A stretch of DNA of 64,000 bases from assembly GCA_001414345.1 (NCBI GenBank), contig LLCB01000115.1, positions 102,185 to 166,184 on the forward strand, written 5' to 3'. This stretch comes from Hymenoscyphus infarciens. Lineage: Eukaryota > Ascomycota > Leotiomycetes > Helotiales > Helotiaceae. Each line of letters begins with the position of its first letter. The stretch's first letter is position 1. Positions 4,069 to 64,000 of this stretch are shown here, in pieces. A model generated the notes under the pieces. That model saw nothing but the letters and a program-made list of their open reading frames with translations, ran no database searches and was not told where the DNA came from. A program made the translations under genes and the position numbers.

Positions 4069-4788
4069 CTTTTAAAAGTATAGTAGTAGATTAAATTTAT
4101 CTTTACTTTCTTAGACTTAAAGTAGTTAGTATTAATAGATAACTTTACTATAATTTTAGTTTCTTAGGTTATATAAGTAAATTTATCTTTTATAGTAAAT
4201 TAGTAAAGATTAGCTATTCTACTTATCTTCTTTAATAATAGAACTATAGAAGAGAAACGAGTTATATTAAGAGTTTATAGCTAAGTAGAGGTATATTAAT
4301 AAGAAGTATTAGCTATATTTAAAGTATTTACTTTAAGTTTATAAACTTTACTTATTAATAAAGTTATTATTTTAAGGATTTATTATAAGATAGAGTTAAG
4401 TAGAGGTAATTTAGAGATCTTATACTATAAGGAACTAGTAGTTACCTTAGTAGGAGGAGGTAGTAGTAGTATAGTAATAGCTAGTATATATGTTTTAGTA
4501 GGTTAAGTTCTTAAGCTAGATTAGAATATAATATTAATAGAAGAGAAAAGAGAGATTAGCTCTACTAACTCTAAAGTAGAGTAGAATAGTTCTTAGGTTA
4601 ATAGGTTACCTTTAAAGGACTTAGTATAGCTAATAGAAGAATACTAGACCTTACTACTTAATATAAATAGGTTAAGCTTTATAAAGGAGAATAGTAAATT
4701 TAGAGGATTTAATATAAGTAAATATATATATTATTATTAGGATATTAATAAAAGCCTTCCTAAGTAAAGAGAGAGAGTTTAGTTTTAG

Positions 4789-4979
4789 TATAATAGCTCT
4801 CTATAAATATATAAAGAGAGTACTTATAGAATAGTATCTAATATTAAAGAAAACTGAACTAAAGAGAAAAGTAAAGAGTATAAGTACTCTAGCTTTATTT
4901 ATATATATTAAGTAAAGCTTTAACAAAGCCTTAAAATAACCTAGTTACGTAAGTAACGTATATAACTAGGACTGTCACA
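4789..4979 (-). repeat. 191-bp LTR of the Gypsy fragment
   Basis: It starts TATAATAG and ends CTGTCACA, so the TGTNA...TNACA ends are partly preserved. It aligns base for base in length with the two LTRs at 55518-55708 and 61111-61301. Confidence 0.85.
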
Positions 4980-5321
4980 GAATTAGCTAACTAGATAGCT
5001 TATAAGTAAATTAGGTATTTATTTAACGATAATTAGATATAAAAACTAATATTATTAATAATATATTAGAGAAATATCTAATAATTATTATATTAATATT
5101 AATAAAAGATTAATCTTTATAAATCTATTAAGTTATATAATTATAAGTTACTTACTCTAAGCTAGTAAGCTACTTATATTATAAGACGTTTTAGTCTTTT
5201 TTTTAAACTTAAACTTATATTTAATACTATTAAATCTTTTAAACTCTACTTATATTATAAAATTTTAAACTATATCTAAAGTATTCTAATTTATCTCTTA
5301 TCTAGCTTTATTACTTTAGAA
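4980..5321. other. AT-rich spacer, nothing recognised
   Basis: RIP-type sequence between the Gypsy LTR and LTR copy 2. No open frame or repeat of known class was seen. Its last five bases TAGAA (5317-5321) are the target duplication of the next element. Confidence 0.6.
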
Positions 5322-5660
5322 TATAATAGCTCGTTATCTAGGCTATCCTAGATAGTAGGTAGTACCTGCTATATATAAGGTTTTAGCTATAATTGTTATT
5401 TTAGCTACTATTATCTTATATCTATTTTAGAAAGGTTATATAGGTTTAAGCTTTTATATTAGCTAACGTATAACGTTAGTCGGTTTTAGACCTCTTTTTA
5501 TACTATCTAAACCTCTTATATATAGTAGCCTACTTCTAGAGTTAGAGAGAGATAGTTTTTCCTTTTCTTCTATATTAGAGTCTAGTATTTATATATGTTA
5601 TTCTACTAAACGTACTCTTATATACCTCTTCTATAGTTATATATATTTTATACTATTATA
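5322..5660 (+). repeat. 5' LTR of copy 2
   Basis: Starts TATAATAG and ends CTATTATA (RIPed TGTAATAG...CTATTACA). Direct repeat of 7980-8321. Confidence 0.87.
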
Positions 5661-7979: not shown

Positions 7980-8321
7980 TATAATAGCCTATTATCTAGG
8001 CTATTCTAGATAGCTAGTAGTATCTGCTATATATAAGATTTCAGCTATAGTTGTTATTTTAGCTACTATTATCTTATATTATCTATTTTAGAAAGATTAT
8101 ATAGGTTTAGGCTTTTATATTAGCTAACGTATAACGTTAGTCGGTTTTAGACCTCTTTTTATACTATTCGAACCTCTTATATATAGTAGTCTACTTCTAG
8201 AGTTAGAGAGAGATAGTTTTTCCTTTTCTTCTATATTAGAGCCTAGTATTTATATATATTATTCTGCTAAACGCACTTCTATATACTTCTTCTATAGTTA
8301 TATATATTTCGTACTATTATA
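7980..8321 (+). repeat. 3' LTR of copy 2
   Basis: Direct repeat of 5322-5660. Preceded by the polypurine tract and followed by the target duplication TAGAA. Confidence 0.87.
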
Positions 8322-9662
8322 TAGAATACTCTTAAAAAGTAAGAAACGTTACTAAAAAGAACTTTATCTAATATAATAAGTATATAACTTATTATATTAT
8401 AAAATTATTAAAAACTAGCTTCTAAGCTAAAGACTACTAACTTATACTTATTTAAGAAGTTTTATTCTATTATAACTAATATTATTAAAAACTAATATTT
8501 ATATATATAAAGATATAATATATATAAGTAATTAGTAATTCTAAACTATATTACTAGAAATACTATTCTAGTATTCTATTAAATACTAATAATAAAGAAA
8601 GGTCTTTAGACTAAGTATAATAAAAAGACTTATTTTAAGAATTCTTAAAAAAGCTAAAAATAGAATTAATAGTACTATCTTCTCTTTCTAAACTTTATAG
8701 ATAAGAAGAATTAGTATAAGTATAAATTACTTAATTAATTAATTATTAATCTAATTAATAATTAGTACTTATATAATTAGATTAGATTAATTAAATTATT
8801 TCAATTATTAATTAAGTAATAAATATAGTTAATATACTATATATAGTAGATATATAGTAGATATAAAGCTTATAAAGCTTAGAAAGCTTAAAATTAGTAG
8901 TTAGATCTATTATTAATATTTATTTATTACTATATAACTAATAGCTAATTTATTAAAACTTAAAATAATAAAGTTACTTTATAAAAAAATCTCTTTAGAA
9001 AGTCTCGCTTAAGCTCTTAATAGTACTAGAACGCTACTCCGAGGCTATCTTAAGACTTATCTTAGTCTCTAATAATCTTAAGCTAGCTACGTACTATATT
9101 AATTAGTTAATTAATTAATAATCTAAATAATAAGTTTTAGTTAGACTAATTAATTATTAGAACTCTATTAATCTATAAATTTATTAACTATAGATTATTA
9201 ATCTAATCTAATCTAATTATTTCTTATACTAAGAATAGTCTATCTTTTAATATTAATTCTTAAGAAGAGACTAAACTTTATATAAAGGTTACTTATAGTT
9301 ACTAAATATATTAATATTATAAAAGCTATTCTATTAATTACTGAAAATAATATAAAGTTAAATAATAATATATTAGACTTCTTTTAATTAAAGATTATAT
9401 AGTATTTCTAACCTAGGTATTTAAACTAGTAAACTTATCTAATTCTTATATATTCTATAGTAATTTATTAATAAATTTATAATATTTAAAAGTATTAAAG
9501 CTATATCTTAAAACATATCTAGTAAATATATCTAGTTAAATAATAATACTACTTCTTCTTTTCTTAGTAAGAATAAGTTCTAAGAACTTAATATCTTTTA
9601 TATAATATATTATCTATATATAGTATTTAAGCTTTATAAGCTTCTATATATATAACTAAACT
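8322..9662. other. RIP-degraded AT-rich stretch, unidentified
   Basis: It holds TTAA/TTAATTAA-rich segments (for example 8728-8830 and 9100-9210) but no LTR, terminal repeat or coding remnant that I can name. Confidence 0.5.
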
Positions 9663-10483
9663 ATATATATAATAGTACGCTATTCTAAATTGCCGGTATT
9701 TATAAAACTGCTAATATCTCGAGGCTAAGATTATAAATAACTAATACTTATATAACTGAAGGTTATAATAGTACCAAAAATAACACTACTACTAAAGAGG
9801 TATATAAGAGTACGTTTAGAGTAGAATAATATATATAATTACTAGGCTCTAGTATAGAAGAAAAGGAAAAACTATCTCTCTTCTATACTAAATATAAACG
9901 TCTATATATAAGAGGTTAAAAGCTACTAAGTTCTAATAATAATAATAACCGAGCTCTGCCTAATATAGCTAATACTAAATAATAAGAGCTAAAAAGCTAA
10001 ATATATAATATCTAAACCTTAATCTCTTCTATATATAAATATTAGATATTAATACCTTTAGCACTTTCGATTATATAAGTATTAGTTATTTATAATCTTA
10101 GCCTAGAGGTATTAGTAGTGCTTAGAGGTATCGGTAGTTTTACGAATACTAGTAATTTAGAATAGCGTGCTATTATAAAGGTGCTAAAGATATTAATATC
10201 TAATATTTATATATAGAAGTGATTAAGGTTTAGATATTATATATTTAGCTTTTCAGCTCTTATTATTTAGTATTAGCTATATTAGATAGAGCTCGGTTAT
10301 TATTATTATTAAGACTTAGTAGTTTCTAATCTTCTATATATAAATGTTTATATTTACTATATAGAAGAGAGATAGTTCTTCCTTTTCTTCTATACTAGAG
10401 CCTAGTATTTATATATATTATTCTACTCTAAACGTACTCTTATATATCTGTTTAGTAGTAATATTATATTTCGTACTATTATA
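9663..10483. repeat. Compound inverted repeat built from head-to-head LTRs and a second inverted unit
   Basis: The segment 9764 to about 10055 is the reverse complement of about 10192-10483. Both share the 3' half of the copy 1-4 LTR family, including the part reading AGAGCCTAGTATTTATATA, and end in TATAATAG/CTATTATA. A second unit at 9665-9757 is repeated inverted at about 10071-10176, between the LTR arms. No matching short duplication was found at the outer ends. Boundaries of the inner units are approximate. Confidence 0.7.
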
Positions 10484-11639
10484 ATATATATAACGCTCTT
10501 AAAATTAACTATCTTTAATTAGCTTATAATATACTAGTAAGAGAGAGTTCTACTAATTATATAATATAAATAATAAATAAAATAGAAGATATAATAAGTT
10601 TAGTTTTAGTAATATAATACTATAATAAATCTATTTATATATATAAAATATTTAACTTAAATAACTAATAGATATATAAAGAGATAGTAAAGTTCTTTAC
10701 TATGTTTATATATCTAGTAAAATAAATATAACTTAGAGCTTATTTAGTACGTATATAATTTAATTTAGATCTATAAGATCTATATATATTTATATAGAGT
10801 TAAAAGATACTTATATATATCTATTTATATTATAAGTTTAATCTTAAATATATTTATTTTTATTTAACTTATATATATATTTTAGTATATATTTTATTAA
10901 CTCTAGACTAAGTCGCTAGTAGTTATAGTTATAATAGTAGTATAAAAAGAACGAATATATATATATATAAAAGTTAAAGATTAAAAGATTAAAAGAGTAT
11001 ATTCTTTAATTTTAGTAGTCTATATTTTTATATATATATATTTAAAGAATAAATAAGCAAAAGTATATACTATTATATATACTAGCTAAACGTTCGTATA
11101 TATTATATTTTCTTTAGTAGTATATATATTAAGAAGTATTTTATATTTTATAACTTAATTTCAAAAAATCTTTTTATTACTTATTAGCTTAATATATAAT
11201 AAGATCTAGAAGTATTATAAGAAGTATATTACTACTTAGTAAGCTTTTATAATAATTATATATAATTTATAATATAAACTAAGAATTCATAACTATCTCT
11301 ATAATACTACTAGAAAGATAAATACTCTTAACTATAAAAGAGCTAACTCTTACTTTCTAGTAAATACTAGATAAAAGTATAATATTTAAATAAATTTAAA
11401 AATAAATAATAAAATAATAAATCTTATAATTATACTAAGAAGCTTAAAAAGTAATAACTACTAGAAGTAATAGCTAAGATAGAAGTTAATAAATAAAAAG
11501 ATTAGAAGATTAATTCTTATTATAAGTATATCTTTCTAGAACTAGCTAGTCTTACTTTATCTCTTTTTGATTTACTTAATTATAAGAGAGAATATTAGTT
11601 TAAGAAGCTAGTTATTACTTAAGTAAGTAATAGAAGAGA
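10484..11639. other. RIP-degraded AT-rich stretch, unidentified
   Basis: Dominated by TATA runs. No terminal repeat or coding remnant was recognised. The purine-rich strand character typical of the LINE to the right begins near 11.6 kb. Confidence 0.5.
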
Positions 11640-14600
11640 CTACTAAAAGGAATTAATAAAGTAACTCTAAAAGCCTTGAAATACGTTTAGACGACTATTA
11701 GACAGTCTAGAAAGAGACTAAAGTACTCTACGATTATGCTAAATAATTATAGTAGTAGTAGTAGTAGAGAAAAGAGAGGCTTATAGAGAGCCTCTATTTC
11801 TCTCTCTAGAGTACTAGCGACTAATAAAGATAGTATAATAAACTAAGAAGAGTAGAGTATAAGAGAATAGAAGAGAGTATTAGACTACGTAGACGTAATA
11901 GAGAAGAGCTTAATCTAAATAATACTTAACTTAGTAATAGAGAAGAGAGGTATTAAAGTAATTATTAAAGTAGTAGGAAAAGTGCTTAAGTATAAGAGAA
12001 CTAGGAAAAGAGAGAATAATAAAATTATATATAGAATCTTATAAGAGAAGCTTACTATTATAGTTAAGAGAATAGAAGGAATAAAGAAGTATAGTCTAAT
12101 ATAGATAGAGAGAGCTAGAACTAGGAGACTATAGAGAGAGGTAGTAACTATATTATAGAAGGAATATATAGTACTAGCTAAATATATTAGAGAGATTATA
12201 GTCTAAGTACTAGAGATAGATAAAGAAAAGAATAAGCTATTACTAAAAGAAGTAATTAAAGCTATAAATATAAGTAGATATAGAGTAGAAGTAATAGTAG
12301 CTTAAAAGCTTTAAAGTAGAGAGATTATTATAAGATTTAAAAAAGAGAAGTAAGTAGAATATATATAAGATAATAGCTAGATAAAGAAGGTATTTAGATA
12401 AGGAATAGTAGTAGTAGTAAGAATACTTATAATACTTATAAAAAGAGCTTTAATAAATATACTTAAGAATAGATAAGAGAGTATACTATAGAGTATCTCT
12501 TAAACCTCTAGTATAAGGATACTAAAGATTATATAATAAGAAAATATATATAGAGAGTATTAGAGATAAGAGAGACTAGTCTAAAGAAACTATATTCTTA
12601 AAGTAGTAATAATAGAGGAAGTAAGAAGGCTATATATAAGAGAGATACTATAAAAGGTATAATACTTCTTATATAAAAGATACGTCTTAGAAGTAGTAGT
12701 ATAGAGGTGCTATAAGTACTAAAAGTAGAGGTATATAGTATACTTCTATAAATAAGATAAGAGATATACCTAGTATATATATAAGAGATATAAAGAGAGT
12801 AAGGAAGAGTACTTTAGTAAGAAGAACTTAAAAGAATACTTAGTAAAGTATAGAAATTATAGAAGAGAATATCTAGTATTTATAAAAGAGTACTATATAA
12901 GAGAGTAATACTATAAGTAAGTAAGAGAATAATATCTTAATAAGATAACTATATTTATAAACCTATAAAGACTCTTAAAAGAGAGTAAGGTAGAGACACC
13001 TTACCTATTTACCTTTAGCTAAAAAGAGGGCTTATAAAGCTTAAAGAAGAGATAGAGATAGAGATCTATATTAGAGAGGCTAATAGATATAAATAAAGTA
13101 GGATATATAAATAGTAGTAACCTAACCTAGTTCTTAGAGAGGTTAAGAAGCTCTTTTAATATAATAAGAGATCTAACTAGAGAAGAAATAGAAGTAATCT
13201 AAACTCTACTTATAAGACTATTATAAGTATAATAGTACTATACTAGAATATAAGGAAGATACTAGAAGCTCTTAATATAGCTCTAAATTATAAGAAGGAA
13301 TATAATATATTAATAATCTAAGAACTAGTATAGAATAGTATAAGAGACTCTCTTAGCTACTTCTTAAGCTTAAGATATAATATAATCTAGTTAAATAAAG
13401 TAGTAGTACTCTTTATATATAAAAGATATTTAAAAGTAAGTTAGACGTATACTATAAGTAAGAACTAGGTAAGTATAATAATAGAGAAAGGAGTAGATAA
13501 GATAATAGTCTACTTAGTCTATAACCTATAAATAAAGTAGATACTAATTAAGAATATACTCTAGTAAGTAAGACTAAGAAGAGTACTTATAATAAGTAAT
13601 CTAAATACTTATTACTCTTTATAAGATATATATAAAAGATATAATAAGAATATAGACCTTGTTCTTAAACTTACGATACTATAGGTACTAGAAAGAGATA
13701 TACTCTATAGTAAAGCTATATAGAGAAGAAAAGGCTTTTATAACTCTATAATTAATCTTACCTTCTCTACTAAGAACGTAGCGACTTAGTAAAGGTTTCT
13801 AGACCTACTAAGATTAGACTATATAGCTTAACTTCTTATAATAAAAGTAGAAGAAGAGAGAAAGGTACTATAGATACCTAGATTTAGTTAAAGACTAATA
13901 GATAAAATCCTAGTTAAAGTAGAAGCCTCTTACTTAGAAATACTTATAATCTAAAAGATATAAGAACTTAAGAAAGTAGTATAAAGACTTATAAAAGACT
14001 TTTAAAAGATAGTAAAGGCTTTAATACTACTCTAAAAACTAGATAGAGAGAGGGTATAGTTCTAGTAGAATATAGAGGTTAAAGAAGTATTAAGAAAGAT
14101 AAGGAAATATAAAAGGACTTAGAAAAAGTACTAAATAAAGAGCTTAAAGTAGTAGCTTAATAACGCTTTTTAGAAACTTTAAATAGTAAGTAGAAAGGTA
14201 AAGATAAAGAGCTAGAAAGAGGTACTAGTAGAGGTAGTAAAAGATAAAAGGAAACTCTAAATACTTAAAAAGTAGATACGCTTTAAAAGATATATAAGAC
14301 TAAAAGTACTAGTACTACTAATACTTATATTACTTAATAGAATAAAAGGTAAGACTTATTAAAAGAAAGCCTATATTCTTATAGAAAAGTTCTTTCTAAA
14401 GTTAATAGCTAACTACTTAAGTATTCTTAATAGAGACTAGAATACTAAGAGCTTCTCTAAAAGGTACTTAGTAAGCTAATATATAACTAAGAAGTATATT
14501 AAAATAGTTATAAGATTAGTATTATAGAAAGTACTAGGATTTAATATACTAGTAAATAGCTTCTTAAAAGCTTATAATAAACTACTTTATAAAGTACTTA

Positions 14601-16830
14601 CTATAATAGTAGAAGTAAGCTTCTACTTATAATACTTCCTATTCTACTTCTACTATATAAAGGTAGTAGTACTAAGAAAACTAGGTAAAATAATTAAGGA
14701 GTAGAGTAAGATAGAGGCCTACTAGCTAATAATACTACTCTTAACTATAGATAAGATCTTTAAAAAAGTAATAGTATAAAAGCTTATATAGCTTATAGAG
14801 GAAATAGTAATACTACTAAGACTATAGATAGGTAACTAGAAGTACTAAAATATAGAGCTAGTAATTAGAATAGTAATAGAGAGTATATATATAATATAGG
14901 AAAATAAGAGCTATATATCTTTAGCCTAACTAGATATAGTAGAAGCTTTTAACTAAGTAGACTATATATAGCTACTTTATATATTAAGAGAGAAGAAGGT
15001 TCTATAATAAGTAATAATATAAATAAAGAGCTTTCTCTTTAGATAAAAAGCTATACTATTCTTTAATAAATAATTAGTAGATAAAAAAGACTTTAAATAA
15101 AGTATTTTATAAGGATTAGTACTATTACTAATACTATTTATTCTCTTTATCTTAATACTAGATAAGAACTTATAAGAACCTAGTAAGAATTAATAAGCTT
15201 ATTATAGTAGACTTTATAAATAATATAAATCTACTTATAATATTAAAAAGTATAATAGTAAACTATAGAATACTTAAGATAGCTTAAAGAGTATATAATA
15301 AGTAGGTAAATAAGTAAGAGATAGCTTTTAGCTTAGAAAAGATAGTACTTATATACTTTATAAGAATAAGATTACTATAAAGAGAGATAGTCTAGTTTAA
15401 GAAGATAAGGCTTATACTAGTTAAGTATATAAGGTTCTTAGAAAGAGAGTTTAATAGAAAACTAAACTAGAAAGTATACTAAGAAAGAGTTTAAAAGAAG
15501 CTTATAATATAGACCTTTATACTTATAAAGCTTACTAGAAAGATATAGAGAGTAGATTACTACTAAGTAAGATAGATATATATAGTAGTAATAAGGAGTA
15601 TAATAGTATATAGAGTATTAGCGTAGTACTATACTATACTAAAAGAAGGGAATATAAAGGGAATAGTAAGAAGCTTCTCTATATAATAATTAAGATACTT
15701 ATAAGTAGTAATAAGAGTATATAAAGCTACTCTAGTTTAAAGCTTAAAAGTTAAAGTAGACTATATACTAATTAACCTATATCTTAACTTATAAGTAGCT
15801 ACTTTTAAGAGGAAGTTCTAAAGGTCTAAGCTAGAGAAACTAATCTAAAACACTTATAGATATATAGTAATATAACTAAAAAGGAGAAGAAGAGATAGAC
15901 TAATAAAGGTAAAGAAGGTAATACTATACTTATAGATAGTAAAGTAGGAGTAAGAAGTGAAGTAGAAAGTAGAAGAAGCGGGATTTAAGTATAATATTAT
16001 ACTTATAGAATAGAAGAACTATCTAAAGACTTAAAAGAGAAGGACTTAAGAGAGGAACTTAACGTAATATATAGAAGCGTTAGACGAAGTAGACCTAAAT
16101 AAGTAGGAGCTATAAAAGGTCTATAAGAGGCTTACTAAGGCGAAGAGCTTACTACTTGTCTAAGTATAAATAAGAGTAATAAGACTAAACGCTTTCCTCT
16201 TTATAAGAAGGGTACTAAACTAGGTTATATTATAGTATATTTATATAAGTAGTAGGAAGATAGTAAGACACTTAGTCCTATTTTACTAGAATATTCTATA
16301 AAAAAGAGATATACTTATAAGGGCTTTAAAAAAGAGGATTAAGGATCTATAAGAGCTAAGAGAAGTACTAGTAGATAAGAAACTAATATTAAGAGTAACT
16401 ACTTAGCTACTTAGGCTAGAGAGACTCTAAGAGTATAAGCTAGTACTAGAATTATTTAAGGAGAAAGAGGAGAGTAAGAAAGAGATAAAAGAAAGAGAGG
16501 AATAAGAGGAGAAAGCTAAGGTATACTAGAAGGTAAGACCTTAACTCTAATAATTCTAGAAGTAAATATACCTCTTATACTACTAATATATACCTTAGTA
16601 GATTAAATATACTAACCTACTATACTCTTCTACTATATTACTAAGTTAAAGAGATAAGCTCTAAATAGATAGTAGTAAGAACTAAAGAAAAGGAGAATCG
16701 TACTTATAAGAAAGCTTAAAAGGTAAAAAAGAATAAGTTAAAAGGCTATATAAACTAGAACAGAAGATATACTACTTACTCTTAGAGCTTAGCCTATAGC
16801 CTACGTAGCGTAAGAATAATAATAATAATA
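11640..16830 (+). mobile_element. Tad1-like non-LTR retrotransposon (LINE), RIP-inactivated
   Basis: Plus-strand coding remnants follow LINE order. An ORF1-like stretch lies at about 11.7-12.9 kb. An endonuclease-like segment includes an IIQEPAQNS-like stretch near 13.3 kb, comparable to the AIQEPW motif. The reverse transcriptase shows an A*LDIVEAFN*VDY stretch at 14919-14960 (family: LDxxxAFDxVxH). At 15207-15236 it reads VDFINNINLL, the RIPed form of GFVDDTNLL in which both catalytic Asp codons have become AAT. A C-terminal segment at about 16.1-16.3 kb resembles the conserved tail of fungal Tad elements. Stops are mostly TAA where CAA is expected. Ends are approximate; no target duplication was identified. 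It was once autonomous and is now dead. Confidence 0.8.
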
Positions 16831-17520
16831 CTTAAATAATATTCTATAAAATAATTAGATTATATCTTATTTTAAAAAAGTATAGCTTCTCTTTTATAAC
16901 TTAAATAATACTTAAATATCTTATAACTAAATATTAAATACTCTATTTTAGTATATATTTAGTAAAAAGAGAACTTATTTATAATAAAAATATTTATTAT
17001 AAATTAATATCTCTAAAGTGAAAATATAATTAATAATAGTAATAAGACTAGTATAATAATTATATAAAATAATTCTTCTAGAGTTACTAATATTACTTAA
17101 ATTTACTTAAAACTACTTATCTTTTTATTTTATCTTTTATTTTAAAGTTTATCTTAAATTTTATACTCTTCTCTTTACTCTTTTAAACTCTAAATTTATT
17201 TTAAAATCGTTAAATATTTTTTAAAAAAAAGTAATATATAGTAATAATTAAGTCTTTTTAGCTAATAATTACTAAAAGTATATTCTCTAAATCGTATTAA
17301 TTATAAAAAGTATTAATTTATATTAAAAGCTGTTAATTAAGAATCTCTTAATATAAAAGTATTAGTATCTAAGTCTAATAATAATTAAGAAGGATTTTAA
17401 TATAAGAAGATAGTTCTTAAGATATTAATAGTCTAAATTACTATATTAAAAGTAAAAAGACCTTTAATACTAAAGCTATTACTATAGAATCTTAGACTCT
17501 TATAGAAGAAGCGCGTTCTA
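16831..17520. other. AT-rich stretch between LINE and retroposon
   Basis: No element recognised. It ends with GAAGCGCGTTCTA (17508-17520), the left target duplication of the retroposon that follows. Confidence 0.5.
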
Positions 17521-18600
17521 GAATACGAAGACTTAATATCTATATACGATATATTCTATAAACCTCTAGTACTTCTATTCGTCTCTGGAACTATCTATAG
17601 AGCTAAGTTTTAGTTAAAACTCGACGTAGTAATACTTCTTTTTATAACTACTAGAGTTTTAGGCCTCTCGACCTTTTATAAAGAAACTACGTTACTATAG
17701 TAATATACTAGTATCGACGACAAAGTTATATAGTTTATTTACTCGATAGTAGTATCTATAGACTACTAAACTAACTAAACTAATTAAGAAAGCCTCTAAA
17801 GTCGATACTATATACTCGTTAATACTAGAGGACTTCTACTCTAGATAGACTATAGAATTATATACGACTTTAAGAAGATAAGAGCTATATACCGACCTAA
17901 GATTAGAGGTGATATCTGTAGTAGTTATTCTATATAGTTAGTATAATACTATATTCGAGTTAAAAGAATTACTAAAAGAGGTAAAGAACTCTTAATAATA
18001 GTAATAGAGTGATTAGAAGAGGCCTAGGTAGTACGAATAGAAGTATAAACATAGAGAGGTCTTTATAACTAAAGAATAGATTCTCTACTATTTATAATCG
18101 TTATAAGTAGATATTTAAAGCGCGTTTAGCAGCTCTTAGATAAAGTAGTAGAAATACCTCTTAGAAGATATATAAACTATAGAGTAGAGAGAATAGAAGA
18201 TAGAAATAGAAGACTTAGGTTAGAGATATATTAGAAGATAGTTCTATATAAGATAGTATACTAGAAGACGATTATTATTAGTCTTCGTTATTAGTCCTAT
18301 ATAGAGAAGAGCTAACTAAGCTCTTACGAGAGCTATTATAATAAACTAAATTTAGTTGTTTATAAGAATAACTAAAATATTAAAATATTAAATTAAAACA
18401 GTGAGAATAGAAGGAGATATTAAGCTATTACTAGAAAGAGAAGCCAGGTGTATATAAAATGGCGGGCTTAGTAATAAGCACTCTAAGAAGTGTATAAGCT
18501 ACTTTTAGATAAAACCCTATAAATAAGTGCGTCTATATAGCGCCTCTCTAGTAGCTAAAAAGACTAGATAAATATAAATAAAAAAAAATAAAAAATAAAA
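17521..18600 (+). mobile_element. 1.1-kb poly(A)-tailed retroposon, copy A (RIP-damaged)
   Basis: It aligns along its whole length with 37656-38846, starts at the homologous nucleotide, and ends in an A-rich tail with interspersed T (about 18571-18600). A 13-bp flanking duplication is seen at 17508-17520 and 18601-18613. The two flanks differ at three sites, all transitions (G/A or C/T), as expected if the left flank was RIPed. No open frame is present. The first 95 nt correspond to the ribozyme-like 5' end of copy B; the GAGCTAAG segment and the P4-like hairpin are still recognisable, but several pairs are damaged. It is a retroposon by structure (poly(A) tail plus target duplication without terminal repeats). 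Confidence 0.85.
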
Positions 18601-30840: not shown

Positions 30841-31481
30841 ATTCTAAGTATAAATTATTTTCCTATTATCAGAAAATCGGAGAAAGTGGTTAGTTAGTTT
30901 ACCTTGACATAATTACGTTGATCCTACTAGTACTGCTTAATTAATATAAAAAGTAAAGTAAAGAAAACTATATTAAATTAAATTATATTAAATCAAATCA
31001 AACTACATAAATATTTCATAAGAATTAAATACTAAAGTAGAGTGAAATAAGACATCCACGCTTTATCTTAATACTGAAAAAGCTAAGCTTCTTACAACTC
31101 ACCGTAGCAAATGCAAGTCTAGTTCGTAATTACTCCACTCAAAAAGCAGTTGAAATGTCGGCCGGCAGTCTTTGAGACCCTCTCTCGCGTATCTAAGACA
31201 GGGGAGGGAAAGAACGGAGAAACTCCCGCGGAAATATAATATTAATAAACTCTATTTTTAATATAAAGTCATATCCTCCGAGATAGAATAGAAAGAAAGA
31301 AAGTGGTTTTCTTATATTATAAAGGTTGGAGTTTAGTAAGTATTAAGAGGTTATATAATATACTACTTAGTACTCTTAAAAAACGAGATAGAAAGTATCT
31401 AAAGAGAAGAGGAGAGAAGAGAAGAGGAGAGAAGAGAAGAGGAGAGGAGTAAGAAGTTAAAACCTAAACTAGGACGCCTAG
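30841..31481. other. AT-rich transition with a 15-bp purine tandem repeat
   Basis: Base composition shifts to AT-rich at about 30.85 kb. At 31407-31450 the unit AAGAGGAGAGAAGAG is repeated about three times. A short GC-richer patch (31085-31230) shows no coding signal. Confidence 0.5.
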
Positions 31482-31799
31482 TATAATAGTATACCGTTAT
31501 CCTAGACAGCTAAGAGTACCTGCTATATATAAGGTTTTAGTAGTTATTATTTTATATTATCTATTTTAGAAAGGTTACGTAGGTTTAGGCTTTTATATTA
31601 GCCGACGTATAACGTTAGTCGGTTTTAGACTCTTTTATATAGTCTAAACCTCTTATATATAGCAGCCTACTCTCCTAGAGTTAGAAAAGGCTAGTTTAGC
31701 CTTTTCTTCTATATTAGAGCCTAGTATTTATATACGTTATTTTACTAAACGTACTTCTATATATCTCTTCTATAGTTATATATATTTCATACTATTATA
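31482..31799 (+). repeat. 5' LTR of copy 3
   Basis: 318 bp, from TATAATAG to CTATTATA, homologous to 35720-36037. Confidence 0.86.
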
Positions 31800-33141
31800 T
31801 AAAAAGGCTAAACTCTTCTTCGCTAGTAATAGCTTAAATAATATCTCTTTTAAGCTTTTTATTACTTCTTTTATTTTAAATTCAAAGTCGATAATATACC
31901 TATTTCGCTTTAAGCTAGAATTAGACTAGAAAGATAATATTCTTAAATAGCTAGGTAATTAGAGACTACTTAGATAGCTAGTAATACTAGGGTTTAGTAT
32001 CTATATAGATAGCTAGTAAAAATCGTATTATAGACACGTTAAGAGATTAGAATACGCTAAGTGTTTCTAAGAATCCTAATAACTCTCTTAGTATAGAGAA
32101 TACTACTCTAGATTTAGTAAATAAGTCGATATACTATAGTTATCGCGAAGGCTTCCGAATCTAATCTTACCTCTCTCTCTCTAAATCGATATCTTCGAAA
32201 TATCGGAACTAGTTCCGCTACGAGGCGTTAAACGACCTTCTAGGGCTACCTCTCTTTCTAAAAGACACCTCTCTAAACCCTTTCTGAATTATACTCGTAT
32301 ACTAAGATCTAGAAGATTCTAAAGAAATAATAACAGTTAAAGAGACTAGTAAGACTTCTCAAATATAGATAATATATAGAAGAGATAGTAGTATATAAAG
32401 AATAAAACGATTAGTTAGAGAGATAGAGGATAAAATTACAAGCGAACTCTAAAGTTAATAACTTAAAAAACACTTCGCCTCTAAACTCTCTCTAATCTAA
32501 CTCTCTTTCGAACCTTCGTTTAAACCCTTCTTTACTTTTAAAGTTCTAATTCAGACCTCTTTTACTTAAGAGACATAGCTACCTCTAATACCTTCTAACT
32601 TATATAATATAGTATCGAAGCCTCTTCGAATACTCTCTAACCTTAACGAAAAAGTAAGATATCTAAAAAGATTAAACCTTTAAAATAATAGTATTTTACT
32701 TATATACTAATAATAGAAGATATTAGTATAAGATAGAGTCTATATAAATACTAACTACTACGGTTTACCTCTAATATATAAAGCTCTTATTTAAGGTATA
32801 ATAACTAGACTAGCTAGGAACTACTTAGAGCCTAGATACGAGTTAGAGTTAGTTTAGAATACTTTCTAAGATTAAAAAGAGATAGTTGCCTTTTTAGATA
32901 CTTACTTTTTAACTAGTTATAAGATAGAGGATACTTGAAACGCTTTCAAATCCTTATAATTAGATAACGAAGATATTAAATTTAGTTCTACTACGAAGCG
33001 TTAAGCGATAACCCTCTTCTAGAGCTACTTCTCTTTTTGAAAGACTCTTTGAACTCTCTTTAATTATACCTATATACTAAGACTTAGAAGATCTTAATAA
33101 AATAATAAAATAATAAGTAAGACTTCTTAAATATAGATAAT

Positions 33142-33777
33142 TATAACGGTATACCGTCTTATATAGCCGAGATTATATAGTATATACTATATATATAAGG
33201 TTTTAGTAGTTGTTGTTTTATATTATCTAATTTAGGAAGGTTATATACGTCTATACGTCTGTCCGGACTTTTAGACGTACTTTATAGAGTTTAGGCTTTT
33301 GTATTAGCTAATATATATCGTTGTTCGGTTTCGTACCTCTTTTTATCGTCTAAACCTCTTGTATATAGTAGCCTACTCTCCTAGAGTTAGAAAAGGCTAG
33401 TTTAGCCTTTTTATATAATAGTACGAAATACACACAACTATAGAAGATGTATATAAGAGTGCGTTTAGCAGAATGACGTATGTAAATACTAGGCTCTGAT
33501 ACGGAAGAAAAGGCTAAACTAGCCTTTTCTGACTCTAGGAGAGTAGGCTGCTATATATAAGAGGTTCGGATAACAAAAAGGGGTACGAAACCGAACAACG
33601 ACATACGTCGGCTAATACAAAAGCCTGAACTCTATAAAGTACGTCCGAAAGTCCGGACGGACGTACGGACGTACGTAACCTTCCTAAATTAGATAATATA
33701 AAATAATAACTACTGAAACCTTATATATATAGCATATGCTATATAATCTCGGCTATATAGGACGGCATGCTATTATA
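33142..33777. mobile_element. Fold-back element made of two head-to-head LTRs
   Basis: The left arm (33142 to about 33405) is the reverse complement of the right arm (about 33415-33777). Each is an LTR of the same family as copies 1-4 and still carries the palindromic CCGGAC/GTCCGG region. A perfect 5-bp duplication ATAAT (33137-33141 and 33778-33782) flanks the whole structure, so it inserted as one unit. It is less RIPed than its host, since CpG and CpA are retained. It is not known to encode anything. Confidence 0.8.
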
Positions 33778-35719
33778 ATAATATATAGATAAGATAGAGA
33801 TATAAAAATAAAGAATAAATAATTAGTTAGATAAGATAGATATAATTATAAGTAAACTTTAAAGTTAATAACTTAAAAAATACTCTATCTTTAAACTCTT
33901 ACTAATCTAACTCTTCTTTACTTTTATATCTGAATTTAGACCTCTTTCGCTTAAGAGACGCTACTACTTCTAATACCTTTCTACTACTTCCTAACTCTTA
34001 AATTAGATATAAATCAGTTAAAATATACTTTCTATTAAGACTAAAGAAGTAAGCTCTTAGCTAAGTTATTACTGTTAATTCTAACTAAATATTATTTAAA
34101 AGAGATAGAAGTAGAATTAAGATAAGATTACGTTAAAGAAACTTTTACTAACTTTAAAAGATTACTTTTCGAGTATAGCTATACTTAGAGAGAGACTAGA
34201 ATCGGAACACTTCTTCTATATATAGGATATATACCTTAGCTTTAAAATGCGTCTGCTACGCTTAAGAGACGCTAGAATTATAACTTTAGATAAAAAGAGA
34301 CACTAAAGTACTAAATATTTAGAAATAACCACGCTTATTAATATTAGCACTTTAGTTTAAAATACCTCTTCTTTCTTATCTAATTTAGCTTTAAACTCCT
34401 TATAATCTAATAGTAACTCTTTTTCTAAAATTAGAAGATAAATAAGTCTTTAAGTACCTTAAAGAGAATAAGATAGCCTACGAGCCTAAGTAATATAGTT
34501 TCTACGATAGTACTAATAAATATTATACTTAAAACTATACTCTCTTTTTGTTATCTTAAATATTAGACAGTATTTATAACTTTGGTATTAACTCTTTTAA
34601 CTAGCTAAAACTACTTCTTTTATTCTCTCTAGATACTCGAATAATTTAAACTTTAATAACTTAGCTATAACCTTGTCTTTAACTAGCTAAAACTATCTCT
34701 TTATTATCTTAAACTTTAGATAATATTTTCAACTTTAACAAATTCAATAACAACTTCGCCTTTAACTAGCTAAAACTCCTTCTTTTATTATCTTAAACTT
34801 TAGATAGTATTTTTAATATTTAGTAATAACTAGGTATTAAGTTTATTTAACTAGCTAAAACTCCTTCTTTTATTATTCTAAACTTTAAATAGTAAGATAA
34901 CTTTAGTAATAACTTCGCTTTTAACTAGCTAAAACTATATCTTTTATTATCCTAAACTTTAGATAACGAAACTCTAATAACTTAGCTATAACTTCACCTT
35001 CGACTAGCTAAAACCCTACTAACTCTAGTAAAGAGTCTTATATTCTTTACTTTCTTTTTACTCTTAGCTAGGCTAGAAGTCCTTTTTTCACTTTTTAAAT
35101 TCGAATTAGATATAAATCAGTACGCTCTTAAAGTAAGCTCTTAACTAAGTTATTACTACTAATTATAACTAAACGACTTCTAACTCTATTTCACTTTCAA
35201 CTTTTAAACTTTTTCAAACCTATACTCTTTTTTATTCGAATTTAAATCAGATACGAATCAGTACGCTCTTAAAGTGAACTCTTAGCTAAGTTATTACTAC
35301 CTTTTAACTAAACAACTTCCGACTCTACTCTAAATTCACTTTCGACTCTACTTTAAACTTTTTCTAATTTTACTTTAAACTTTAAACTTTCTCTAACCTA
35401 CTAGATAGATTAGACTACACTCTTTTAGTAGACGTAAATACTTACCTTTAATATTAAAGGATTAGAAACGAAGTCTCTTTATAAGTATCTATAGTTATAA
35501 TTTAGACTTAAAATCGATATCTTAATATCTCGTCTTACTTATAACTAATTTTTAATAAACAAAGTATCTTTAAACTAGGTTAGCTATAATTTAGATCACC
35601 TTCTCGCTTATAATAAAATTAATAAAATATAACGAATATAATAACTTATACTATCTCGATTTAACCTTAAATAATAAAAGAGAGAAGACTTAAGATAAGT
35701 CTTTTTTAAGAGAGAGAGA

Positions 35720-36037
35720 TATAATAGTATACTATTATCCTAGATAGCTAGGAGTATCTACTATATATAAGGTTTTAGTAGTTATTATCTTATATTATCT
35801 ATTTTAGAAAGGTTATATAGGTTCAGGCTTTTATATTAGCTAACGTATAACGTTAGTCGGTTTCGAACTCTTTTATATAGTTTAAACCTCTTATATATAG
35901 TAGTCTACTCTTCTAGAGTTAGAAAAGGCTAGTTTAGCCTTTTCTTCTATATTAGAGCCTAGTATTTATATACGTTATTCTACTAAACGCACTTCTATAT
36001 ACCTCTTCTATAGTTATATATATTTCGTACTATTATA
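35720..36037 (+). repeat. 3' LTR of copy 3
   Basis: 318 bp; polypurine tract immediately before it and target duplication CTTAG immediately after. Confidence 0.86.
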
Positions 36038-36420: not shown

Positions 36421-37639
36421 CTCAAGCTTACCTACTATTCTTTTTTGTAGATAAGAGGTGGATAAGTGGCGAGGAGAGTTGCGTGGGTTATGAGTTGCGT
36501 ATAAACACTAATTCAAGAAATTTAGATAGGACGGAGATTCGCTGCCGTGTCCGAACCATCAATCAATCCCACGGAAGCGAGAAAAAGAAAAAAGGAAAGG
36601 CCTTGGTTCTTATTTGTGCTACCTACCTGCCTGGGTGGAATGTTCTTTGTCCCTTCCATCCGCCTTGGATTGCGGCACCATCGCATCATCGGGGAAAAGC
36701 TGGCTGGCTGGCTGGCTGGCTGGCTAGCTGGCTGTACCTGCTTCTTAACAGCTTAATATCTTACTCCTCTGCTGCGATGCCAACGACCCAACGACCTTTA
36801 CCTTTGCGAGTGAGTGAGTGTACACGGAGAGATAGATGCACACCCTTAGGAAAGAGATGCACACCCTTAGGTAGGATTCTAGGAAATGGTTGGACTGGAA
36901 GTATCTCGGTGAGCTAGATAGCAGCCCCATTTTACTTTAGAGTTGTCGAGGACTTAGCTGCATATTTCCCATCCATCCTCTTCTTTTTGGTATTCGCGTC
37001 GTCTGGGTGGACCAAGACTAACCAGATGTTGAAGATGCCGGGTGCGTGGGAAATCGCATCGGATTCCTGGGATCCACTTAAAGGGACGGTCGGTAAAGGC
37101 GGGCGATGGATTTTTATACTGTAACAAGGAGCGTATGTATGTAATTCGTTGTCACATCATAGGTACTTGCGACAGACGCAATACCAGGAAGTGATAAGAA
37201 CGGAAGTGTGCTTGTATATCACGATTGACAGACAGCTCGATTTCCACGACGAGCCAAACTAAGCTGGCCGAGGTTGATCAATATTGAAGATGGAATGATC
37301 CAAGACTTTCTTGGATCCTTCCCGCGGGGGAATTCTCACCTCTTCTGAGTCTTCTCTCTCCAAGTGACCGCCAAGATCGTGTTATGTCTTGGACGGTCAC
37401 TCTCTAGAGGCTAGCGGAGGGATCTGGGTATTACTGAATGCTACCTAGGCACTATGGTGACTGTGGTTGTAGATTGTACTCTACTCGACTAAGAAAGGAG
37501 AAACGCCTTGATTTCCTCCATTTGCTTATTTGCTCATTTGCTCCCCCGATTTCTTGGGAGCAGCGCCTGCCGACAGCTGTGACCCCTTGGCATCGCGTTT
37601 GGAGGTGGAAATGTTGGCAGTAATAGCGATATCTCCCTT
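36421..37639. other. Non-RIPed spacer with GGCT microsatellite
   Basis: Ordinary composition. A (GGCT)n tract of about eight units lies at 36699-36732 (one unit altered). An 18-19 bp direct repeat, GATGCACACCCTTAGG, occurs at 36834 and 36856. Short frames here run through these repeats and are not credible genes. Confidence 0.5.
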
Positions 37640-37655
37640 GGAGGTCATACCTGAG
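37640..37655. repeat. Left target-site duplication of retroposon copy B
   Basis: GGAGGTCATACCTGAG, identical to 38847-38862. Confidence 0.95.
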
Positions 37656-37751
37656 GGATGCGAAGACTCAACACCTGTACGCGGTGCATCCTACGAACCT
37701 CTAGTAGTTCTATTTCGCCTCTAGAACTATCTACAGAGCTAAGTTTAAGTC
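37656..37751 (+). ncRNA. Candidate HDV-like self-cleaving ribozyme at the retroposon 5' end
   Basis: The manual fold gives all helices in the right nesting. P1: 37656-37661 (GGATGC) with 37686-37691 (GCATCC). P2: 37665-37672 (GACTCAAC) with 37743-37751, containing a bulge and one mismatch. P3: ACC 37673-37675 with GGT 37683-37685, closing a 7-nt loop TGTACGC. P1.1: loop GT with AC at 37693-37694. P4: 37699-37712 with 37722-37738, an eight-pair core TAGTTCTA/TAGAACTA plus a CTCT/AGAG base. The J4/2 strand reads CTAA (37739-37742), so C37739 would be the catalytic cytosine. Cleavage would release a transcript starting at the first base of the element. Ribozymes of this class occur at the 5' ends of R2 and other non-LTR elements. 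Activity is not shown. Confidence 0.68.
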
Positions 37752-38846
37752 AAAAGGGCGACGTAGCGATACCCCTTTTTACAACTATTAGAGTTTTTAG
37801 CCTCTTAACCTTCTATAAAGAAGCCACGTTATATATAGTAATATACTAGATATTAACAAAAAAGACCTATATAGCTTATTTACTTAATAGTAGTATTTAT
37901 AGACTACTAAAACGAACTAATTAAGAAAGCTCTTAAAGTTGATTCTATATATCCGCTAACACTAGAGGACTTCTACTCTAGATATACTATAGAATTATAC
38001 ACGACTCTAAGAAGGCGAGAGCTATATACTAACCTAAGATTAAAGGTAATACCTATAGTAGTTATTCTATATAGTTAGTATATACTATATTTAAGTTAAG
38101 AGAATTACTAGAAGAGGTAAAGGACCTCTAATAATAGTAATAGAGTAATTAGAAGAGGCCTAGGTAGCACGAATAAGAGTATAAACGTAGAAGGGTTTTT
38201 ATAACTAAATAATAGACTCTCTACTATTTATATTAGGATATTTAAAGTACGTTTAATAGTGTTTTAATAAAGTAGCGAAATATCTCTTAAGAGGTATAGG
38301 ACTATAGAGTAGAGAACTAATTCTCTAGTTAGTTATAGAGAACTAATTCTCTACTATTTATATTAGTAGATATTTAAAGCGTATTTAACAGCTCTTAGAT
38401 AAAGTAGCGAAATACCTTTTAAGAGGTATAAGACTATAGAGTAGAGAGAATAGAAGATAGAACTAGGAAACTTAGGTTAGAGATATATTAGAGGATAGTT
38501 CTTAAGATAGTATACTAGAAGACGATTATTATTAGTTCTATATAAGAGAGAGCTAACTAAGCCCTTTTTATAAGAGTTGTTATAAAGTACTAAATTAATC
38601 GTCTATAAGAATAACTAAAAATATTAAATTTAAATTAGAATAGAGGGAATAGAAGGAGATACTAAGCTATTACTAGGATATAAAGCTAGGAGCGTAGAGG
38701 TATATATATATAGCGGGCCTAGTAATAAGCACTCTAAGGAGTATATAAACTACTTTTAGATAAAACCCTATAAATAGTACGTCTACATAGCACCGGCTTT
38801 AGGCAGCTAAAAAGACTATTTAAATATAAAAAAAAAAAAAAAAAAA
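37656..38846 (+). mobile_element. 1.2-kb poly(A)-tailed retroposon, copy B, with ribozyme-like 5' end
   Basis: It is bounded by perfect 16-bp target duplications (37640-37655 and 38847-38862) and ends in a run of 18 A (38829-38846). There are no terminal repeats, so it moved by target-primed reverse transcription. Its 5' end coincides with that of copy A (17521), so both are full-length and not 5'-truncated. No open frame or pol motif is present; it must borrow a LINE machinery, perhaps from a Tad1-like element. A segment of about 130 bp is duplicated in tandem (about 38205-38335 and 38338-38450). RIP is moderate, and the first 100 bases are nearly untouched. It lies about 1.3 kb upstream of the kinase start. 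Confidence 0.9.
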
Positions 38847-38862
38847 GGAGGTCATACCTGAG
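38847..38862. repeat. Right target-site duplication of retroposon copy B
   Basis: GGAGGTCATACCTGAG, identical to 37640-37655, directly after the A tract. Confidence 0.95.
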
Positions 38863-40008: not shown

Positions 40009-40145
40009 TCTAATCCTATTCATTCACATTCGACATTCGATTACTTCATTCACCAACAATTGCATTGTTGTTGTTGGTTGAATAAGTCAATACCTTGGTC
40101 AGCACTCGCATTCCTGCACCCCCAAAGCCCGACCGAACCTCAGCC

Positions 40146-42453
40146 ATGCCCGCCATCACTTCAGCCCCGCCATCCGCGGCTCCTTCCTTCCACCACATCT
40201 CATACGACCCTTACCACCACCACCTCCACCACTCCAATCCACCTACAAGTACAACTCTTCATCAACTACCCAAATTGCAGACCGACAACACCTCCACCAC
40301 CTCCACCACCTCCACCACCTTCACCACCTCCACTACCTCCTCTTCCGCCGACACCAGTCTCTCCTCGTCGCCAGAGTCGCGACCCCTCGATCTTCGAAGT
40401 CCCATACCCGAAGAAGAGGAAGATGAAACTAGCAGTGAGGCCGCCAACGAGCCAATAACTCCTACAGATAACCACCATCCCTACAATTTTCAAGATAGGA
40501 TGAATGGCATGAAGCATGAGAATCTCAACCCTTTTGAATTGAGCCATTCACAGCCGCCGCCGCCGTTGATATTGAATACCGCAGCCACCCCTCCACCTAC
40601 CGCCAACAAAACCCCTTCCACTCCCTCGAACGAGCAGACCCCCAAGACACCTGCACCCAAACGACCCGGTTCTTCGTCCAAGGACTCGGGCATCAAACGT
40701 GCAATGTCGGGTTTCTTCCGCCGGTCGAATTCACATGGCGCGAACGCTCACGATGTGGTACCCGTACCGCGGTTGGAGAATAATGCGCTTGCCGGAGCAG
40801 ACATCAACTTGAGCAAGGAGGCTCGCAGATTGTCAATTAGGCGCATGTCGGCAAATAATTCACCATACACCACTCGGTCGAATTCACCACCCTCGCCCGG
40901 CTCCCCTGCGGATATCTCGAATGGCAAGTCGCAACCACAACCACAACCTCATCTTCAGGTCCAAGAACCTTCCAAGGACGAACTATTCCACAATCGAAAG
41001 AAGAACCGTTCTTCGACGGGTCTAGGACATGGAATCAGAGACAGATTCTCAAGACATAAGCACTCCCACCACGAAAAGGCACCAGACCATGAGCACCGCG
41101 ATCGTGCTACCAGTGTTGACCTCGATACTTCATTACAAAACTGCGACGAAAACGCCAACGCGAAGCTCCCACAGAGAGCCATCTGGGCCCTGCCTGCGGA
41201 AACTGGCATCGGTCTCAAGTCAAGGCGGATGAGTTTGAGCCTCCCTGACGACTTTACGGTGGATGTCGCAGAGCTATACAGCGAATTCCAAGACCAGAGT
41301 AAGATGGTGGGTAAGCGGGGAAAGAGCATCGGCAAGGGTGCTACTTCAAAGGTGAAATTGATGAACCGAAAAGGCTTCCCTGGTGAAGTCTTTGCGGTCA
41401 AGGAATTTCGCGGAAAGTCGTCCAACGAAAAGGCGGAAGATTACGAACAAAAGGTCAAGTCGGAATATTCGATTGCCAAGAGCGTACATCACCCCAATAT
41501 CGTGGAAACTTTTCGACTTTGCGTACACGCTGGGAAGTGGAATCACGTCATGGAGTACTGCGACCAAGGGGATCTCTTCAGTCTTGTCAGCCAGAAATAC
41601 CTCTCGAGACCGGAAAGAATGGCGGATCGATTATGCTTGTTCAAGCAGTTGGTTCAAGGAATTAATTACCTCCACAACAATGGAATCGCCCACCGCGATA
41701 TCAAGCTCGAGAATCTCTTAATCACCAAGGATAGCAAGCTGAAGATTACCGATTTTGGAGTCTCGGAAGTCTTTGCCGGTATTCACCCTGGATTGAAAGC
41801 TGCAGCAGGACAATGTGGAAAAGACATGGGGGAGGTAAGACTATGTGCCCCAGGCATGTGTGGTAGCCCTCCCTACGTCGCCCCCGAGGTCCTGGAGAAG
41901 AATGGTGAGAGTTCAACAAGACTTTTCCTGTCACAGATGCTAATAAAAACCAGGCGAATACGATCCACGTCCCTTGGATGTCTGGGGCGCCGCCGTCGTG
42001 ATGTTATGCCTATGCGCCAACGGCTGTCTCTGGACCGAAGCACGAAATGGCAGCTCACCCCTCTACGACGACCTCGTCCGCGGCTGGACGAAGTGGAATG
42101 CGAAACATCCCGAGGGGGAAGTTCCCAATATCTCGGAAACGGATTACCCGCATGTTGCGTTCTTTGATCAGCATATTAATCCTCCTGCCCTCCGTCGTAT
42201 CCTGCTCACTATGCTCAATCCCGAACCCTCGAGAAGAGCTACCATGGCGACCATCGCGAAGAATCGGTGGTTGAAGAATGTCGAGTGCTGTCAGATTGAT
42301 AGCTATGATGATCCTACTACGACGGTGGATGCGACCAAGATGCGGAGTTGCTCTTCAAAGGGGATTGTGAAGGTTGTGAGTCATAACCATCTCCCGCCTA
42401 GCCAACACTTTGGGCATAAGCTTGTGAGACTTCCGGGGAGTACGGATATGTAG
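40146..42453 (+). CDS. Serine/threonine protein kinase, Hal4/Sat4/Hrk1 type
   Basis: Two exons, 40146-41904 and 41954-42453, separated by a 49-bp GT-AG intron, giving 752 aa. ATG 40146 (CAGCCATGCC) is the first ATG of the frame. Residues 1-380 are low-complexity and probably disordered: His/Thr/Ser/Pro-rich, with a Thr-Ser repeat at about 45-68 and many SP/TP sites. The kinase domain runs from about 390 to 700: GKGATSKV loop (396-403), VAIK-type Lys419 in VFAVKEF, HRDIKLEN with catalytic Asp518, DFG 536-538, and SPPYVAPE with APE 579-581. All catalytic residues are present. The family in yeast controls potassium transport and the plasma-membrane proton pump, acting in the cytoplasm at the membrane; that role is inferred. 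The upstream region has received retroposon copy B, and the gene itself shows no RIP. Confidence 0.93.
41905..41953 (+). other. Intron of the kinase gene
   Basis: GTGAGA donor, TGCTAAT branch site, CCAG acceptor. Splicing yields EKNG-EYDPRPLDVWG, the expected subdomain IX sequence. Confidence 0.92.
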
Positions 42454-63172: not shown

Positions 63173-64000
63173 TTATCTATTTAATAGATAATTCGAGAAA
63201 ATACTAAAGACTAAAGTTATAGCTTAAATAATATATAAAGAGGTCTATATTTTTAGTATATAAAGCTTATAATTATATTTATTTATTAAATATATAGTAA
63301 ATAAAAGGTTTTTATATTTAACTTATAAAATAAATAACTATAGTTATCTATTAAATAGATATTTAAAGTAAGGTTTTATTATTATATTAAAAAGCGAATT
63401 ATTATATTTATTTATTAGATAGATAAATAATTAACTATTTTTCTATATAACTTAAAAAGCTAGCTACTTTATTTATTAATTAAATAAATATTTAAACTAA
63501 AGTCTTAATATATCTTATAACTCTAAATACTTAATTTATCTATTAAATATATATATATTTTATATAGTTAAATACTATTTTTATCTATTAAATAGATAAT
63601 AAGAGTAAATCTATTATATATAGCTTATAAAGCTAAATACTTATTTTATCTATTAAATAGATAATTAGAGAGAAGTGTTTATATATAGCTTATAAAGCTA
63701 AATACATATTTTATCTATTAAATAGATAATTAGAGTAGACTTATTATATATAGCTTATAAAGCTAAATACTCTTTTTATCTATTAAATAGATAATTAGAG
63801 TAAAGTCTATAAATATAGCTTATAAAGCTAAATATATATTTTATCTATTAAATAGATAATTAGAGTAGACTTATTATATATAGCTTATAAAGCTAAATAC
63901 TCTTTTTATCTATTAAATAGATAATTAGAGTAAAGTCTATATATATATTATAGAAAGCTAAATACTCTTTTTATCTATTAAATAGATAATAAGAGTAAAG
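63173..64000. repeat. 65-bp palindrome-containing tandem repeat array, running off the window
   Basis: The palindrome TATCTATTAAATAGATA recurs with its TCTATTAA core at 63584, 63649, 63714, 63779, 63844, 63909 and 63974, exactly 65 bp apart. Each unit also holds TAGCTTATAAAGCTA, a second near-palindrome. Units alternate between two types, so the period is 130 bp over 63714-63973. Upstream, to about 63173, degenerate copies are irregularly spaced. The array continues past the right edge. Confidence 0.88.

Follow-up and report, generated by a model that had tools for sequence, protein, structure and literature searches.

Why does a retroposon with no recognizable coding capacity begin with an RNA fold of the HDV ribozyme type, and does the first base of the inserted DNA coincide with the base at which such a ribozyme would cut? 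This question is raised by a locus in a 64-kb stretch of a contig of the helotialean fungus Hymenoscyphus infarciens (64,000 nucleotides; hereafter, the window). A preliminary description of this stretch had noted an HDV-like fold at the exact 5′ end of a non-coding element.

Ribozyme-headed retroposons are known from other eukaryotes. According to excerpts of the original reports, the R2 SIDEs and R2/R1 hybrid SIDEs of Drosophila are short, non-autonomous elements with a 5′ HDV-like ribozyme that are mobilized in trans by target-primed reverse transcription (TPRT) (PMC3414825), and the trypanosomatid NARTc, RIME, and SIDER elements are dispersed, short, non-autonomous retroposons with a 5′ HDV-like ribozyme, several of which were shown to self-cleave in vitro (PMC4035085). 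In fungi, a survey of HDV variants reported 230 representatives in 26 species, with cleavage shown for two, against 11 earlier canonical examples; the string "transpos" does not occur in the main text of that survey, which therefore supplies no element context (PMC5640933). Among the matches listed in our search of the open literature, none described a fungal retroposon that begins with an HDV-like ribozyme.

Genomic setting of the locus

The genome assembly comprises 65.6 Mb in 742 contigs and displays RIP-like decay, with a TpA excess, CpA/TpG depletion, and AT-rich tracts. In the window, RIP-like AT-rich tracts (1–18000, 31000–36000, and 43000–64000; mostly 18–37% G+C) alternate with gene-bearing stretches (mostly 40–53%). 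A protein kinase encoded at 40095–42167 shared 77% identity with a protein kinase of Hymenoscyphus fraxineus (Helotiales) in an alignment covering 86% of the query; the next named match was from Cudoniella acicularis (Helotiales). The interval 63234–63939 contains a tandem array with a 65-nt period, whose copies are 86–90% alike in its later part.

The element opens with a complete HDV-type double pseudoknot

The 5′ end of the element, which we assign to family A, can be drawn as a complete nested double pseudoknot of the HDV type comprising P1, P2, P3, P1.1, and P4 (Table 1). When G37655 is numbered 1, P1 is formed by 1–7/32–38, P2 by 11–18/89–97, P3 by 19–21/29–31, and P1.1 by 23–24/39–40, with P4 at 45–84 and C37739 as C85. 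All the parts named in the preliminary description were present in the sequence. P1, which had been given as the six pairs GGATGC/GCATCC, was there as well and proved to be a 7-bp helix, GGGATGC/GCATCCT, with the G37655–U37692 pair at the predicted cut. P2 (GACTCAAC/GTTTAAGTC) contained one bulge and one mismatch as described, namely a bulged T and, in the window copy, C15–A93.

The HDV ribozyme has a G–U pair at the cut and a 7-nt L3 with a U and a G; its P1.1 is formed by L3 positions 2–3 and the two bases after P1, and a C opens J4/2. The window fold displays these features one for one. A cytosine in the first place of J4/2 is named as a feature of HDV-like ribozymes in an excerpt of PMC10879173, as are an R–Y pair at the cleavage site and a cut at the P1 base in PMC5640933. 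Two details qualify this drawing: C37672 could pair with G37743 across the bulge or be an extra base between P2 and P3, and P4 contains an internal loop.

Table 1. Coordinates of the family-A element and its predicted ribozyme in the window
Feature	Position	Strand	Basis or remark
Family-A non-coding retroposon	37655..38846	+	Duplication and A-run; no Pfam domain above cut-off
5′ target duplication copy	37640..37654	.	15 bp; next base G37655 matches too
3′ target duplication copy	38847..38861	.	Identical to 37640–37654
HDV-like ribozyme	37655..37751	+	Predicted cleavage 37654/37655; structure, copies, descriptor, duplications
P1 5′ strand	37655..37661	+	Structure and copy alignment
P2 5′ strand	37665..37672	+	Structure and copy alignment
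P3 5′ strand	37673..37675	+	Structure and copy alignment
L3 loop UGUACGC	37676..37682	+	37677–37678 form P1.1 with 37693–37694
P3 3′ strand	37683..37685	+	Structure and copy alignment
P1 3′ strand	37686..37692	+	U37692 pairs with G37655
P1.1 3′ strand	37693..37694	+	Structure and copy alignment
P4 hairpin	37699..37738	+	Structure and genome matches
J4/2 CUAA, presumed catalytic C37739	37739..37742	+	C in 40/40 best copies
P2 3′ strand, one bulged T	37743..37751	+	Structure and copy alignment

Target duplications place the first inserted base at the predicted cut

The window copy is 1,192 nt long when its 19-nt A-run (38828–38846) is counted, which corrects an earlier estimate of ~1.1 kb. Its target duplication, previously given as 16 bp, consists of 15 bp plus an ambiguous G that matches on both sides. 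To place the boundary, we used other copies: 217 candidate family-A copies were found in the genome, and the 40 best were scored and all used, a choice by which decayed copies are under-represented. A supported target duplication was present in 29 of these 40 copies, being perfect in 21, and absent in 11. The 5′ duplication copy stopped directly before alignment column 1 in 18 of the 29; it overran the start of column 1 in seven (by one base in five copies, by two in one, and by three in one) and fell short of it by 1, 1, 3, and 5 bases in the other four. The seven longer duplications are consistent with one-in-four chance continuation. One duplication-bearing copy, L002, sits in a simple repeat.

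Since the duplications end before column 1, the element starts with the G or A that pairs with U38. Column 1 was G in 29 of the 40 copies and A in 11, A being what RIP would yield, and the pair at the predicted cut was accordingly G–U (29/40) or A–U (11/40), that is, an R–Y pair. The window element thus begins with G37655, which extends P1 to seven pairs. The preliminary description had rightly placed the boundary at the predicted cut, but had read the start one base late, at 37656, because, in the window copy, the target carries a G at this position as well. Judged from these junctions, the inserted DNA and the predicted ribozyme product would share their first base, and cleavage is expected at 37654/37655.

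Each family-A copy that we read was one unit, carrying a lone ribozyme and an A-tail and bounded by target duplications; the flanks differed among the 40 best copies. Within the element, 38218–38315 and 38348–38447 form a direct duplication of ~98–100 nt (85% identical), which recurs in many copies. At another locus, L062, the match to family A is limited to the first 162 nt, beyond which the sequence is different, AT-rich, and free of Pfam domains; this locus is a chimera or an insertion.

Pairing is conserved among copies, and P4 provides the better covariation evidence

The 40 best copies aligned gap-free over 105 columns covering the ribozyme, and 95.0% of the 1360 pair cells held standard pairs, P1.1 being lowest at 83.8%. 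When the partners were slid by 1–3 columns, standard pairs dropped to 21–45%. The first U of L3 was kept in all 40 copies and its G in 36, and the P2 mismatch A was replaced by G in six copies, where its partner was C in three and U in three. The expectation that genomic copies keep P1, P2, and P4 was therefore borne out in this best-copy sample, except that the second P1 pair was broken by G-to-A in 12 of the 40.

We then compared the substitutions with shuffled controls. There were 40 cells changed on both sides; the shuffles averaged 19.0, and none of 500 was as high. Seven pairs displayed a both-side change, a value matched by 69 of 500 shuffles, and the 22 further pair types were matched by 480 of 500. 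RIP targets CpA on both strands. Since a CpA on one side of a helix is paired with a TpG on the other, changes of RIP form in P1 and P2 prove little, and the apparent covariation there can largely be RIP damage. Changes in P4 are better evidence, as columns 54–55 and 71–72 lie outside a CpA/TpG context. Among 53 genome matches with the P4 length of the window copy, columns 55–71 were T–A in 29, C–G in 16, T–G in two, and unpaired in six; columns 54–72 were T–A in 52 and C–G in one; and columns 56–70 were C–G in 46, T–A in one, T–G in one, and unpaired in five.

Other possible marks of selection were not decisive. In the ribozyme, 184 of 440 cells retained the CpA/TpG site, compared with 342 of 2031 in the body. 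We rejected selection as the cause of this sparing, because the last 90 nt of the element were likewise spared (0.31–0.34 on five sites), so that an edge effect suffices. The idea that RIP-hit copies serve as sources was unsupported, the sharing of RIP states lying within the null (37/40 copies; top-20 mean 2.37 versus a null mean of 1.95 and a highest value of 2.55 in 200). The ribozyme was free of gap cells, as were 216 of 944 body blocks; its single transversion cell compares with a mean of 6.1, yet 111 of 940 blocks had a count as low.

A descriptor singles out the fold in the window

We built a descriptor of the HDV fold (7-bp P1, P3, P1.1, the base of P4, the catalytic C, and P2 with at least four of five pairs) and ran it over both strands of the window. 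Its single match with the catalytic C fell exactly at 37655, and substituting A, T, or G in the catalytic place yielded one (at 10201), zero, and zero matches, respectively. In 60 dinucleotide-shuffled windows there were two matches in total, a figure that measures the chance level and not a blind discovery, because the descriptor was composed with the candidate already in view. Over 95 loci of the same genome, some of which were the same place fetched twice and some without a ribozyme, it gave 26 catalytic-C matches, all within the family ribozyme, against one, one, and zero for A, T, and G. The strict form was passed by just 13 of the 40 best family-A copies.

While an HDV-like fold was thus recovered by descriptor, Rfam models did not report one: there was no HDV-family match in the whole window at the gathering threshold, nor at E ≤ 10 in 37600–37850 and loci L077, L083, and L085. 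The library may lack coverage of R2-type and fungal HDV variants. The minimum free energy (MFE) folding of the ribozyme was unexceptional (z −0.45), which is uninformative because the pseudoknot cannot be drawn by this method.

A second non-coding family and a mini-element carry the same ribozyme core

A pattern for the ribozyme core matched 61 places in the genome, and a longer P2′/J4/2 pattern matched 97, with zero matches in the reversed control in both cases. Ten further places fetched with a J4/2–P2 pattern comprised eight of family A and two of a second family, B. Six of the 61 core-pattern places had a different, shorter P4, and all six preceded the body of family B, a non-coding family with its own P4, body, and 3′ end that keeps the ribozyme core. 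In one B copy (C556), this P4 is fully paired: CTACAG, CTCTT, loop, AAGAG, T, CTGTAG. The B copies L056 and L072 matched the window copy over ribozyme columns 1–46, and L056 also over 76–96; beyond the ribozyme, the matches were A-tail stretches and one 16-nt opposite-strand match (E ~0.005). On these alignments, families A and B appear to have in common just the ribozyme core and the A-tail.

Among 13 loci regarded as B or as odd forms, 11 had a recognizable ribozyme (10 B and one A), and the expression used to search for it had no match in L082 and L084. Target duplications of family B were found at L056 (12 of 13 bases), L072, and L076, and none was seen at L046, L079, and L083, the remaining loci with a readable A-run. 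The L056 element (~480–1248) includes a ~770-nt block that is absent from L072 and has pieces elsewhere in the genome, i.e., a nested repeat.

The shortest form, the mini-element L047, is 166 nt long and consists of the ribozyme and 69 nt, 28 of which are the A-tail. It is flanked by a perfect 16-bp duplication, AGCAGTCGGAAATATA, that ends exactly before G1 (GGGATAC).

The elements resemble LINE-dependent retroposons, and no partner LINE was detected

The absence of a recognizable coding domain, implied by the earlier statement that the element has no ORF, was upheld. No Pfam domain exceeded the cut-off in the window copy (six frames) or in L029 (three frames), the family-A search giving three weak matches below the cut-offs (E 0.046–0.15), and none did so in the three sense frames of family B; Sua5 domains in the B search belong to a downstream gene. 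With L062 likewise negative in six frames, we rejected the view that the A or B body is a decayed LINE. Both families thus have the hallmarks of LINE-dependent retroposons, namely an A-tail, target duplications, and no coding capacity by Pfam. A strict Pol III A or B box, as in classical SINEs, was absent from the first 400 nt of five copies, where weak boxes may be present, and a T5 run lies at about position 122, just behind the ribozyme; together, these features speak for Pol II read-through. The insertion in 28S rDNA typical of the R2 clade was not seen, as the flanks differ and the window has no rRNA match (Rfam at gathering).

Profile searches of the genome with PF14529, PF00075, PF03372, and PF00078 (150 of 323 reverse transcriptase [RT] candidates scored) detected no LINE partner. 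PF14529 had no match. The four PF00075 matches, none with stops, were read from ORF lists as host RNase H genes, and the seven PF03372 matches, six without stops, look like host genes. At one locus (L075; G000:C137:17500-23000), two RNase H domain matches lie in adjacent ORFs, perhaps as part of a small cluster. All 150 scored PF00078 matches contained stops; they were 270–489 bases long and, from length alone, were taken as LTR-type and not as LINEs. Many duplications of families A and B are perfect, the 21 in family A suggesting recent mobility, yet no intact enzyme is visible in the genome, all 150 scored RT matches (of 323) having stop codons. The partner may be absent from the assembly, may have been lost or have decayed beyond the reach of the models, or may be one of the 173 unscored RT candidates.

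Discussion

The fold noted in the preliminary description was confirmed with a one-base correction, and its interpretation as an HDV-like ribozyme heading a non-coding retroposon is supported by the sequence comparisons above. Where copy ends are readable, they lie mostly at the predicted cut, which suggests that the ribozyme trims the element RNA from host transcripts. We consider it very probable that the ribozyme has this role and that the element is then mobilized in trans by an RT, most likely that of a LINE. In the pathway that we infer, a host transcript would read through a copy and the RNA would cut itself just before G37655, releasing an A-tailed RNA whose 5′ end is well defined. A trans-acting RT, most likely that of a LINE, would then use target-primed reverse transcription to copy this RNA from the A-tail into another site, leaving an insertion flanked by target duplications of 12–19 bp. 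No promoter or ORF of its own would be needed; the ribozyme and the A-tail may suffice.

The 5′ fold could instead be a structural or regulatory module of RNA or DNA, such as a promoter or a binding site for a protein or the RT, that resembles an HDV ribozyme without cutting. There is a precedent for such a second function, since trypanosomatid Pr77 is reported to act as both promoter and ribozyme; this alternative nevertheless seems improbable to us, given that the presumed catalytic C is kept in all 40 best copies, that the first inserted base is the predicted cut, and that family B has replaced P4 as a whole while retaining the ribozyme core. It is still less likely, and in our judgment very unlikely, that the conserved 5′ end of a repeat merely happens to fit the HDV fold. 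The descriptor was tuned after the fact and found two matches in 60 shuffled windows, and the core pattern alone matched at least 120 stretches in a very large collection of viral contigs, which we took as chance; however, the fit begins at the very base where the duplications set the start of the element, pairing survives in the P4 variants, and the second family has just this stretch in common. A retrozyme-like role, in which the ribozyme would make circular RNA monomers from tandem copies, is the least probable of all, because, although non-coding hammerhead retroelements that accumulate as RNA circles exist (PMC7761336, excerpted), each copy read here is one unit with a lone ribozyme and an A-tail, enclosed by target duplications.

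Trimming of a linear retroposon RNA, the reading that we prefer, has parallels in the excerpted descriptions of known systems. Like the R2/R1 hybrid SIDEs, families A and B join unrelated 3′ parts to the same ribozyme; unlike these Drosophila SIDEs, which lie in 28S genes, derive from known LINEs, and require a particular 3′ end, they occur at many sites and end with just an A-tail in common, and no parent LINE was found (PMC3414825). They share with NARTc, RIME, and SIDER a dispersed, short, non-autonomous nature and an HDV-like fold at the 5′ end, known here from sequence, but the Pr77 of those elements is a promoter common to the LINE L1Tc/ingi, and no such LINE was found here (PMC4035085). 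With the R2 ribozymes, the fold has in common a P1 of ~7 nt, the P3/L3/P1.1 core, and the L3 G and U, which pair with each other in R2, where the G is conserved; P1 of R2 often uses flanking 28S sequence, whereas P1 of family A lies wholly inside the element (PMC3774820). The fungal HDV variants typically have C–G at the cut (PMC5640933), in contrast to the G–U or A–U pair found here (C in column 1 in none of the 40 best copies), and the window ribozyme is nearer to the general HDV consensus than to those variants. Further marks of the fungal variants are an additional nucleotide between P2 and P3, a place that C37672 may or may not fill here, and a loop E in P4. Ribozyme-headed retroposons and fungal HDV ribozymes were thus already known; what is new is the host, a fungus, together with the two unrelated bodies and the missing partner.

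Across many copies, the predicted cut coincides with the first base of the element. This gives the ribozyme a concrete role, offers a cleavage site that can be tested directly, and adds a helotialean fungus to the hosts of ribozyme-headed non-autonomous retroposons, which are known from R2 LINEs and those of trypanosomatids. The ribozyme core appears as a swappable module, and which RT moves these elements becomes a sharp question. More tentatively, and with somewhat more doubt than confidence, we propose that fungal HDV-like ribozymes are largely the heads of promoter-less, ORF-less retroposons in which nothing but the ribozyme core is shared and portable, this core being joined to unrelated bodies and, in one case, almost directly to the A-tail, and that these elements are moved by an RT yet to be named. 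If this is true, such elements would leave RIP almost nothing to destroy.
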